DNA of 64,000 bases from Pseudooceanicola sediminis (GTDB taxonomy: Bacteria; Pseudomonadota; Alphaproteobacteria; Rhodobacterales; Rhodobacteraceae): the NCBI RefSeq assembly GCF_003575965.1, contig NZ_QWJJ01000003.1, positions 62,001 through 126,000 on the forward strand, given 5' to 3'. Of this stretch, positions 8,191 through 63,706 are shown piece after piece. The translations under genes were made by a program, and so were the position numbers. Positions within the stretch are counted from its first letter, which is position 1. Each line of letters opens with the position of its first letter. The notes beneath the pieces were generated by a model. The model was not told where the DNA came from, searched no databases, and saw only the letters and a list, made by a program, of their open reading frames with translations.

Positions 8191-8253
8191 GCATAGGTTA
8201 AGCACGGTCCGTCAACCCGGCCCCGCCGGGACAGGAACCGCTTTGAAAAACCG

Positions 8254-8318
8254 TTCAGATACCGCTCAGACACCGTCAAGATACCGACGTCGGGATTCGC
8301 GGGTTTCCTGAATTAACC
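8254..8318. repeat. 11-bp iteron-like tandem repeat, locus 1 (3 units) plus conserved TTAACC tail
   Basis: Units TTCAGATACCG, CTCAGACACCG and TCAAGATACCG lie end to end at 8254-8286 with an exact 11-bp period. ACGT follows directly, and after 26 bases TTAACC at 8313-8318. The whole block is matched at 62648-62712 with identical spacing; the unit type also occurs at 29894-29937. The consensus is NNNAGAYACCG. TTAACC resembles the CtrA half-site used by alphaproteobacteria, but that link is inference. Confidence 0.85.
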
Positions 8319-28940: not shown

Positions 28941-29863
28941 ATGTCCCATGTCAAGATCGCAGTCTTTCCCGTCGCCGGTCTCGGAACCCGCTTTCGCCCC
29001 GCCACCAAGGCCGTCCCGAAGGAGATGCTGCCGCTGGTCGATCGCCCCCTGATAGACGACGCGGTCGAGGAGGCCCGCGCGGCGGGGATCGAACAGTTCA
29101 TCTTCGTCACCTCGCGCGACAAACCTGCGATCGAAACGCACTATGGCAGGGTCCCGCATCTTGAACGCAGGCTTCACCGTGCGGGCAAGACCGCCGCCCT
29201 TCAGGCCGTTCAGGCGGGTATCCTGCCGCGCGGAACCGCCCGTTTCCTGCGTCAGGATCGCCCGCTCGGGCTTGGTCACGCCGTGGGCCTGGCGCGTCAT
29301 CTGGTGGGGGATCAACCCTTTGCCCTGCTGCTGCCCGACGATGTGATCATGGCGCCAAGGGGCTGCCTGGCGCAGATGGTTGCCGCGATGGAGGTCGCAC
29401 CCGACGCCGTGCGCGCCGACGGAATCCTGCCGACGGAATCATGGACGTCGACCGCAGCGAAGGGCCGATCGCATTCCCGCGTGGTCTGGTGGAAAAACCC
29501 GAACCCGCACAGGCACCATCGCGCCTGGCCGTTGTCGGGCGCTACATCCTGGAGCCGTCGATCTTCGCGCGTCTGTCGGAAACCCGGCCGGGCGCGGGCG
29601 GCGAAATTCAACGGATCGATGCCATCAACGCGGATGCCGCGACGGGCGTTATCACGGGCCTGCGCTTTCGAGGAGAACGCTTCGACTGCGGCTCGGTCGC
29701 GGGCTACCTCGCGGCGACACTGGCCCATGCGATGCAACGCGCCGATGTCGGCCCCGCCGTCGCTGCGGCCATGCGGCGCCACCTGGCGCATGTGCGGCCA
29801 GGCTGCTCGCTGCACCCTGAACACCCCTCCGGGTCGGCGCGCTCCCTCCAAGGTGTCGCGTGA
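28941..29863 (+). pseudogene. galU: galU-like UTP-glucose-1-phosphate uridylyltransferase, frameshifted
   Basis: The intact enzyme makes UDP-glucose for polysaccharide synthesis. The first part reads correctly (VAGLGTRFRPATKAVPKEMLPLVDRPL, RPLGLGHAVGLAR, LLPDDVIM). The C-terminal part (GLVEKPEPAQAPSRLAVVGRYIL, PGAGGEIQRIDAI, RGERFDCGS) continues only in another frame. The break coincides with a 14-bp tandem duplication, 29415-29428 and 29429-29442, differing at one base. Removing one copy restores a single 302-residue frame. The region just before the break also looks about 10 residues short relative to the family as I recall it. It is a true pseudogene or an assembly/sequencing error. Good ribosome site GAGGAG. 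Confidence 0.82.
29415..29442 (+). repeat. 14-bp tandem duplication disrupting galU
   Basis: GCCGACGGAATCCT is followed directly by GCCGACGGAATCAT. The 14-base insertion shifts the reading frame. Confidence 0.9.
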
Positions 29864-29893: not shown

Positions 29894-29937
29894 CAAAGAC
29901 ACCGCAAAGACACCGCAAAGACACCGACCAGATACCG
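29894..29937. repeat. 11-bp iteron-like tandem repeat, locus 2 (4 units)
   Basis: Three perfect copies of CAAAGACACCG followed by ACCAGATACCG, exact 11-bp period, then ACGT as at the other two loci. It lies 31 bases after the galU stop and 9 bases before the palindrome at 29946. The 26-nt/TTAACC tail of loci 1 and 3 is absent. Confidence 0.85.
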
Positions 29938-29945
29938 ACGTGAAA

Positions 29946-29963
29946 CCTATCCGTTCGGATAGG
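29946..29963. promoter_or_regulatory. EPS-cluster palindrome, site B (perfect 18 bp)
   Basis: CCTATCCGTTCGGATAGG is a perfect palindrome 78 bases upstream of the periplasmic protein gene at 30041 that precedes the hybrid kinase. It is the best copy of the four-site family. Confidence 0.75.
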
Positions 29964-62557: not shown

Positions 62558-62647
62558 GCTCGGTAGACGGCAGGCAGCGCACGCTTGCGCCCTCCAGCCT
62601 CCCCGACCGCTGCGTTAACGACCCTCTCCGCACCACCCCGCGCACCG

Positions 62648-62712
62648 TTCAGATACCGCACTGATACCGTCAAGATACCGACGTTGCATTTCGCCGGTTT
62701 CCTCAATTAACC
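62648..62712. repeat. 11-bp iteron-like tandem repeat, locus 3 (3 units) plus conserved TTAACC tail
   Basis: Units TTCAGATACCG, CACTGATACCG and TCAAGATACCG at 62648-62680 with exact 11-bp period, then 26 bases and TTAACC at 62707-62712. The 26-base spacer matches locus 1 at most positions, including ACGT at its start and GGTTTCCT near its end. Confidence 0.85.
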
Positions 62713-62752
62713 ACTCGATTCCGCGCTTTTCGGCAAAATCCCCCTACCGACG

Positions 62753-63706
62753 TCAGCGCGCCGCCTTGTAGGTTCGCTCATACATGCTGCGCAGGTGCTG
62801 CTCGACCGTGATCGGCGGATAGCGCGGGGTCTCGCCGTCATACAGGCAGGTCGGGATGCACGATACCTCGTGGTCGGGAAAACCCGAGTAAAAGAAGGGA
62901 ACCGAGTACCGCTCGCGCCCTGATTTGTTGATCACCCGGTGAAGGGTCGAGCGGTAGCGATCATTGGTCCACCGGGCAATCATGTCGCCCAGGTTGACCA
63001 CGTAAGCCCCTGGAATCGGGGGCGCATCTATCCAGCTTCCATCTTCGTCGCGCACCTGAAGCCCGCCGACGTTGTCCTGCAACAGCATGGTCAGCCCGCC
63101 GAAATCCGTATGCGCCCCGGCGCCCATCTCGTCGGGGTTGTCGGGCTGCGCAGGGGGATAGTGCAGCAACCGCAGCGTCGCCAGCGGCTGGTCGCAAAAC
63201 CCTGAAAAGTAATCTTCTTCCAGATCCAGCGACAGCGCCATGCCCCGCATCAGCAGCGCCCCCAGCGTCGTCATGGCGGCGAAATAGGCCATCATCGTCG
63301 GGCGAAATCCGGGCAGGTCGCTGGGCCACTGGTTCGGTCCGTGATTGAACTTGCCCGCCGCCACACGCCCGTCCCGCGCCGTCAGTTCCTCGCCGATGTA
63401 ATAGCCTTCCTTGCGGTCCGGCAGCGCCCCCTGCTGAAGGGTCTGGCCCCCCAATTGCTCATATCCGCGATTGCAGGGGGAATTGGCCTTGTCCAGCGCG
63501 TCCTTGCAGGCATCCGGTATGTCGAACAGGGCGCGCGTCTCGCTCATCACCGCCTCGATCAGGCCTTCGGGAATGCCATGGCCAGTGACATAGAAAAAAC
63601 CATGCGCCAGGCAGGCCGCACGGATCTTTTCGCCCACCATGACCCGCTCGCACGGGTCTGATGAAGACAGGCCCGCGACATCTATGATCGGCAGTGTTTT
63701 CGCCAT
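62753..63706 (-). CDS. 2-oxoglutarate/Fe(II) oxygenase, isopenicillin-N-synthase-like
   Basis: 317-residue non-haem iron oxygenase. Iron ligands His199 and Asp201 (GAHTDFGGLTML) and His256 (STLHRV); co-substrate Arg266/Ser268 in RERYSVPFF. The N-terminal DIOX_N domain includes ACLAHGFFYVTGHGIP. Length and motifs are typical of bacterial IPNS-family proteins of unassigned substrate. The start at 63706 follows AGAGG; an upstream GTG in frame is less likely. A related oxygenase gene lies just upstream on the same strand. Confidence 0.9.
   Translation of the reverse strand: MAKTLPIIDVAGLSSSDPCERVMVGEKIRAACLAHGFFYVTGHGIPEGLIEAVMSETRALFDIPDACKDALDKANSPCNRGYEQLGGQTLQQGALPDRKEGYYIGEELTARDGRVAAGKFNHGPNQWPSDLPGFRPTMMAYFAAMTTLGALLMRGMALSLDLEEDYFSGFCDQPLATLRLLHYPPAQPDNPDEMGAGAHTDFGGLTMLLQDNVGGLQVRDEDGSWIDAPPIPGAYVVNLGDMIARWTNDRYRSTLHRVINKSGRERYSVPFFYSGFPDHEVSCIPTCLYDGETPRYPPITVEQHLRSMYERTYKAAR

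Follow-up and report, generated by a model that had tools for sequence, protein, structure and literature searches.

Polar arrays of short direct repeats, usually four units at an 11-bp step, are dispersed through the intergenic DNA of Pseudooceanicola sediminis, and arrays built in the same frame from other repeat words occur in other genera of the Rhodobacteraceae. We interpret the arrays as dispersed double-stranded DNA binding sites for a predicted protein that would bind head to tail, with a role in chromosome organization favored over one in the regulation of neighboring genes, and we give this interpretation an even chance of being correct.

The original prediction was made from a 64,000-nucleotide stretch of the P. 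sediminis genome (referred to here as the window) and described a family of tandem repeats with an 11-bp period, each array closed by ACGT, at three loci. The family is real. In the window, AGAYACCG-N3-AGAYACCG (two or fewer mismatches) matched eight times (shuffle mean, 0.02; 0 of 100 shuffles reached 8). In the whole genome (4.44 Mb; 54 contigs), GAYACCG-N4-GAYACCG matched 162 times (98 on the + strand and 64 on the - strand; reversed control, 0); these matches are pairs of units, so that a four-unit array can be counted more than once. The predicted three, four, and three units of NNNAGAYACCG are present as described (Table 1), except that the middle unit of the 62648 locus (TGATACCG) has one mismatch to AGAYACCG. 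Beyond the prediction, arrays 1 and 3 are each preceded by one more ACCG unit, a degenerate one (8250-8253 and 62644-62647), and are thus four-unit arrays as well; GTTAAC boxes and genus-specific words, described below, were also new. The 8254 and 62648 loci do lie between convergent genes, as had been noted, and the 29894 locus lies between codirectional genes. No GTTAAC boxes were seen at array 2. In P. spongiae (genome G459; NZ_CP045201.1), the counterpart of array 1 has GTTAACC at an equal distance as its tail box, and that of array 3 occupies the same intergenic place and has the head box.

Table 1. Arrays and associated boxes in the window
Feature	Position	Strand	Description
Array 1	8250..8290	+	Four units at 11 bp (ACCG, ATACCG, ACACCG, ATACCG), read directly; three full units at 8254-8286; ACGT end at 8287-8290
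Tail box TTAACC, array 1	8313..8318	+	22 bp past ACGT
Array 2	29894..29941	+	Four units (CAAAGACACCG three times, then ACCAGATACCG) at 29894-29937; ACGT at 29938-29941
Head box GTTAAC, array 3	62614..62619	+	Starts 30 bp ahead of the first ACCG
Array 3	62644..62684	+	Four units at 11 bp; three units at 62648-62680; ACGT end at 62681-62684
Tail box TTAACC, array 3	62707..62712	+	22 bp past ACGT
GATTC (GANTC)	62717..62721	+	Directly beyond the array 3 tail box

Three other features of the window were recorded. A perfect inverted repeat (CCTATCCGTTCGGATAGG; 29946-29963) stands right behind array 2 and was not seen behind arrays 1 and 3. A single extra unit (TACCGACGT; 62745-62753) at the end of an oxygenase gene resembles the lone downstream unit that follows several P. 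sediminis arrays. The galU gene (28941-29863) appears split by a frameshift or sequence error: its first frame corresponds to positions 1 to 147 of 261 of the GalU model, below the curated cutoff, and the continuation at 29441-29863 lies in another frame, in which there was no Pfam match.

The pattern ACCG-N7-ACCGACGT was found at 147 places in the P. sediminis genome (control, 0), and the stretches around 100 of these places were aligned together with the window; the 100 matches correspond to 91 distinct arrays. The commonest element was C-ACCG-N7-ACCG-N7-ACCG-N7-ACCGACGT. Four units were the modal length in P. sediminis (48 of 91), P. spongiae (18 of 25), P. atlanticus (genome G443, NZ_AQQX01000001.1; 23 of 37), and the loci of a public scan (58 of 108 among the matches listed, including 5 P. 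atlanticus loci). A Rayleigh test did not resolve a period of 11 from 10.5 or 12. Read as a 7-bp word plus a 4-bp spacer, a contrast helped by the search pattern, the word is GATACCG; spacers are often NTCR or TCAR in P. sediminis and ACGY in P. atlanticus and many other loci. Some P. sediminis spacers spell the LexA-type motif GTTC-N7-GTTC by chance, but other species have other spacers, and this reading was rejected.

Part of the copies is flanked by GTTAAC-like boxes, one some 28 bp upstream and the other some 25 bp downstream, with distances and words partly shaped by the patterns used to find the arrays. In the public-scan loci listed, GTTAA peaked at -28 (15 of 48) and at +24 to +26 (24 of 61), and 52 of 55 TTAA-to-TTAA distances (53 elements) fell at 78-83, 91-94, or 101-102 bp. 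In the same loci, GTTAAC occurred at 2.98 per kb (74 in 24,840 bp) within 120 bp of arrays versus 0.17 per kb (14 in 84,063 bp) in other intergenic DNA. Boxes are a minority feature in P. sediminis, where a regular-expression pattern placed a TTAA[CT] box near 18 of 95 copies (5 of the 100 matches were excluded because their last unit was neither [AT]TACCG nor ACACCG). The P. sediminis tails fall into subfamilies that were described from the alignment, without counts, and that a regular expression did not separate: one runs on as ATTTCAAnGGCTTR, one has TTAAC boxes, some copies lie close to start codons, and others continue with TGAAACCG or GAATACCG. Tandem duplications of whole elements (80 to 90 bp) were seen in L240 (end of G000:C27), in L175, and at the start of G000:C6; the two at contig ends look as if longer minisatellites broke the assembly. 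L177 and L185, at both ends of G000:C2, share an array and its flank in inverted orientation.

A scan of the complete genome and of related Rhodobacterales had been proposed as a check, and it placed the pattern far above its control and present in relatives, that is, neither at chance frequency nor without conservation. Few of 292 genomes of the order were rich in the GATACCG class (P. sediminis, 162; G176, 36; G090, 16; G018 and G196, 9 each; G041, G093, G107, and G109, 6 to 7 each). Among 198 genomes of the family, the single unit RATACCGACGT was frequent in P. sediminis (157), G408 (38), G382 (25), G002 (21), and G426 (14) and near the control level in most others. Of 23 Pseudooceanicola genomes, five were rich (147, 146, 81, 34, and 34 matches) and the other 18 had 0 to 3; a search for box pairs in these 23 genomes gave few pairs outside the rich ones, and the sequences listed for the poor ones contained no arrays. 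The element is therefore dispensable or lost in array-poor Pseudooceanicola, and most genomes searched in the order, family, and genus scans were without array enrichment. The public scan returned at least 113 stretches, carrying, among the matches listed, the names Roseovarius, Shimia, Pseudooceanicola, Boseongicola, Salinihabitans, Silicimonas, Sedimentitalea, Roseobacter, Thiosulfatihalobacter, Pseudohalocynthiibacter, Rhodobacteraceae, and Alphaproteobacteria.

Gaps and gene contexts were obtained with a simple gene caller written for this work. The 100 P. sediminis matches comprised 30 sense tandem, 25 convergent, 18 antisense tandem, and 7 divergent placements; 11 overlapped a called gene, and 9 were cut by an end. 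Counted as distinct arrays in disjoint sets, the placements in the same order were 28, 23, 18, and 6 in P. sediminis (91 in total, 16 unclassed), 10, 9, 2, and 1 in P. spongiae (25 in total), 16, 8, 6, and 5 in P. atlanticus (39 in total), and 26, 32, 24, and 8 for other names among the matches listed (103 in total). Thus, convergent gaps hold many arrays and divergent gaps few. Among gaps of at least 60 bp within the same loci, arrays occupied 25 of 61 convergent versus 8 of 62 divergent gaps in P. sediminis (p = 0.0005), 35 of 71 versus 9 of 120 in the public-scan loci listed (p = 1e-10; this set, unlike the disjoint ones above, included 12 Pseudooceanicola loci), and 9 of 26 versus 5 of 40 in P. 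atlanticus (p = 0.06). Compared with all other gaps, the convergent preference was weak in P. sediminis (p = 0.02), clear in the public-scan loci listed (p = 1e-7), and absent in P. atlanticus (p = 0.32). The depletion of divergent gaps bears out the expectation that ordinary promoter function is unlikely.

Tandem placements leaned to the sense strand within the genus (28:18 in P. sediminis, 16:6 in P. atlanticus, and 10:2 in P. spongiae; p = 0.18, 0.05, and 0.04) and showed no strand preference outside it (26:24 among the matches listed); overall, counting distinct arrays, 50 of the 130 in tandem placement were antisense to both neighbors, the public-scan part again being the matches listed. 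The suggested mapping relative to origin and terminus was carried out in P. spongiae, with the origin taken at parS and the terminus as the opposite point. The 95 sites of this genome lie about 46 kb apart on average and are more evenly spaced than random (coefficient of variation, 0.77 versus 0.98 in simulations, 0.4% of which were as even; one genome and one pattern). Array strand showed no correspondence to the replichore, 58 running against the fork and 38 with it (p = 0.05), unlike KOPS-type polar sequences, whose strand follows the replichore, and no gap in array positions near the terminus was seen by eye. The identified flanking genes have unrelated functions (secE, leuD, radC, dnaJ, a RegA-type regulator gene, and arfB). 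A start codon (secE or leuD) is only tens of bases away from some copies, which could be regulatory. In L230, L306, and L062 (two Pseudooceanicola species and a Shimia), an array stands directly behind an ActR/PrrA/RegA-type regulator gene, identified as such in the P. sediminis locus.

Array sites are shared between species. All 16 array-flanking P. sediminis genes (9 arrays) with a sampled ortholog in P. spongiae flank an array there, in agreement in side and orientation (39 P. spongiae array calls were used, including repeats from overlapping loci). In P. atlanticus, 13 of 18 such genes (the 13 from 9 arrays) do so, 12 of the 13 agreeing in side and orientation. The corresponding values for nonflanking P. 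sediminis genes, used as a control, were 0 of 11 and 4 of 27. At shared sites, the words were 95% identical to those of P. spongiae (142/150), the spacers 58% (56/96), and the flanks 52% (6 of 9 arrays, hand-picked for clean register); the values for P. atlanticus were 90%, 42%, and 35% (5 of 9 arrays). This contrast between words and spacers is an upper estimate, as the search pattern favors ACCG. Between arfB and the gene of a queuosine-precursor transporter (both named in the P. sediminis locus), the gap holds the element in the same orientation in P. sediminis, P. atlanticus, Shimia marina, and Roseovarius. Three further P. sediminis loci (L168, L169, and L181) have a flanking gene in common with a public-scan array in another arrangement.

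A paired-box search (GTTAAC-N(72-100)-GTTAAC) gave matches in 94 of the 198 family genomes. The reversed control was often equal or higher, so that, by count alone, box pairs are enriched in only some of the genomes (G343, 41 versus 1; G035, 9 versus 1; G425, 8 versus 0; G372, 6 versus 0; P. sediminis, 9 versus 4). In further genomes, the box pairs (e.g., L352, L354, L356-L359, and L361) enclosed no array. Nine other genera were selected among genomes that showed several box pairs or visible repeats. Between their boxes lie units, usually four, at a step near 11 bp (12 in G403; mixed in G299), spelled in other words, for example, GTCCGAC in G339 (11 elements), CAGCC/GCACG/CACC in G343 (20 distinct loci of 41 pairs), TTCCGAT in G422 (5 elements), GTATGAC and GTCGGAC in G404 (8), CATACG/CCGACG/GGGACG in G425 (8), and GATGCCG, one base from GATACCG, in G401 (3). 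Against 500 shuffles that kept base composition only, the lag-11 self-match was above all shuffles in seven of these nine dialect genera; lag 12 was so in G403, and G035 (2 elements) reached 0.39, slightly less than the top shuffle value. All shuffles were likewise exceeded at lag 14 in G343 and at lags 12 and 15 in G299, and 11 was the best lag in 33 of 50 between-box segments (some counted twice).

The frame common to these sites is a GTTAAC head box, usually four 11-bp units, and a GTTAAC tail box, with GATTC in some lineages. Box-to-box lengths in the dialects were 87-90, 97-101, and 107-111 bp, with 91-93 bp in G343 and G299. GATTC stood 2 to 5 bp past one box, never on both sides, in 15 of 35 elements, all from G339, G401, G422, and G425; GANTC occurred beyond the tail box in 21 of 68 elements versus 0 of 68 at the head, a partly circular bias, GANTC having been used in orienting the groups. 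The 68 dialect elements were placed as convergent (25), antisense tandem (19), sense tandem (12), divergent (7), at an edge (3), or over a called gene (2). Homologs in GATACCG-class loci were available for 26 of the genes that flank dialect elements. Of these, 16 lie next to an array there when every hit scoring at least 80% of the best is considered, and 15 when only the best hit is (expected, 29%, i.e., 486 near of 1,704 distinct genes; p = 0.002 for 15 of 26); a first comparison with fewer loci had given 6 near and 7 far. Side and orientation agree for 8 of the 16, the orientation of some dialects (e.g., G035) being arbitrary. The arfB gap of G299 holds an element in the G299 dialect and in the same orientation, and G299 and G343 have four sites in common in the same orientation, with one further shared gene (L364/L448) in disagreement.

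What the arrays do was weighed against three alternatives. A 3'-end RNA element was among the roles originally suggested; it could be a Rho loading (rut) site, which has evenly spaced pyrimidine-C steps, or a protein-bound repeat in transcripts. The GATACCG-class strand is C rich (C, 0.34 to 0.37; G, 0.19 to 0.23), and the upstream gene usually points at the array in P. sediminis (55 versus 25 of the classed matches above). The C excess, however, is not kept in five of the nine dialects (e.g., 0.16/0.22 for C/G in G404 and 0.30/0.39 in G425) and is at most 0.05 in the other four, the antisense tandem placements noted above do not fit a transcript element, none of six folds improved on shuffles (z, -0.94 to +1.06), and Rfam gave no match above the gathering score in the window and 12 loci. 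We consider an RNA-level role improbable. Small repeats that move or amplify nonautonomously (MITE-, BOX-, or REP-like) and are homogenized by copying would account for about a hundred dispersed copies, for subfamilies with diagnostic tails (our reading of the alignments), for the tandem duplications in L175 and L240, and for the patchy distribution among genomes. Sites are nevertheless common to species, and some to genera, in the same orientation; the repeats are direct, with no palindrome; and the words differ inside a similar frame, which speaks against copying because copying would replace the whole element. A GATACCG-class scan of IMG/VR gave 0 matches, and blastn of one 91-base copy (a short, repetitive query) against a plasmid collection gave none. 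MITE-like elements have terminal inverted repeats and insertion polymorphism at orthologous sites; the array sites are largely shared with P. spongiae and P. atlanticus. A mobile origin appears improbable.

The arrays might also be operators of a large ordinary regulon, in which a winged-helix response regulator of the OmpR/PhoB type on 7+4 direct repeats controls the neighboring genes and the GTTAAC boxes are CtrA half-sites. The accessible text of PMC4832192 gives this geometry, that of PMC7232146 writes the CtrA site as TTAAC-N5-GTTAAC, and some copies do lie just upstream of secE, leuD, and other genes. Such a regulon is nonetheless unlikely in our judgment, given the depletion of divergent relative to convergent gaps, identified neighbors without evident common function, and words that differ among genera, which would be unusual for a regulon of this size.

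We return to DNA binding sites for a head-to-tail protein. A common frame, exchangeable words, partly conserved places, and unrelated neighbors point to a protein whose binding specificity changes as its sites do. Each array is a directional row of units, usually four, that repeat every 11 bp (7-bp word plus 4-bp spacer). Along it, four protomers of a single sequence-specific protein could line up head to tail, nearly on the same side of the helix; the earlier suggestion of a protein on one DNA face fits the 11-bp step. The GTTAAC boxes around part of the copies may bind a second factor, and the sites would be candidates for anchoring, domain, or segregation sites of the chromosome. Copy number, four-unit architecture, box positions, intergenic placement, site sharing, and dialects are results of computation; judged from them, the arrays are perhaps bound by protein, perhaps as DNA rather than RNA, and perhaps serve chromosome organization. 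A purely structural role is countered by the sense lean within the genus, which such a role does not predict, by copies near start codons, and by absence from most genomes examined.

More broadly, we propose, at a little less than an even chance, that several Rhodobacteraceae lineages share an undescribed class of sites in which the frame is common, the words are rewritten genome-wide, and sites and orientation persist. The words would change together because binding domain and sites coevolve into dialects, with segregation or recombination, and not gene regulation, as the possible driver. No named element with this unit was known to the original prediction, and the part of the literature covered by our searches held no paper describing these arrays; among papers with the exact string ATACCGACGT, no listed title concerned such an element. 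If correct, the proposal means that several lineages of a mostly marine family mark their chromosomes at dozens of fixed places in a lineage-specific spelling; it would expose a new chromosome-organizing (or regulatory) protein and offer a rare natural series of matched recognizer and target dialects, in which a specificity change of a protein and its many sites is testable. The sites are defined well enough for direct use as bait.

Several known systems resemble the arrays in part. The DNA uptake sequences of the Neisseriaceae are likewise a dispersed motif with lineage-specific dialects, but they are a single motif, without array or frame, in far more copies. Rho utilization sites are C rich, G poor, and in the sense orientation; the arrays have this composition only in the GATACCG class, and their orientation is mixed. 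REP/BIME elements, according to the portion of PMC2817692 consulted, also have many extragenic copies, but these are palindromes, whereas the arrays are nonpalindromic direct repeats of nearly fixed length, and the six folds gave no sign of hairpin units. The GTTAAC boxes share their spelling with the CtrA sites of Rhodobacterales in the excerpted PMC7232146, but CtrA boxes are 5 bp apart and the array boxes about 80 to 110 bp apart, around the array. Mycobacterium tuberculosis PhoP, of the OmpR/PhoB family, binds a 7-bp motif with a 4-bp spacer head to tail, and the accessible text of PMC4832192 names tandem trimers and tetramers; the arrays have the same motif length, spacer length, and direct repetition, although promoter location is not their general rule (divergent gaps, 8/62 in P. 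sediminis and 9/120 in the public-scan loci listed) and their words differ between genera. The ParR/parC plasmid centromere of R1 has 11-bp repeats, and the Clostridium perfringens families described in extracts of PMC9426499 differ in repeat sequence and binder specificity; the arrays, too, are tandem direct repeats of about 11 bp that differ between groups. Unlike parC, a plasmid centromere upstream of parM, they number about a hundred on the chromosome, and GTTAAC boxes accompany part of them; ParM and ParR were absent from the 16 neighbor proteins identified or scanned, and 91 distinct arrays depart from one centromere per replicon. By analogy, the head-to-tail binding on 11-bp repeats proposed here has precedent in the ParR and OmpR/PhoB proteins.
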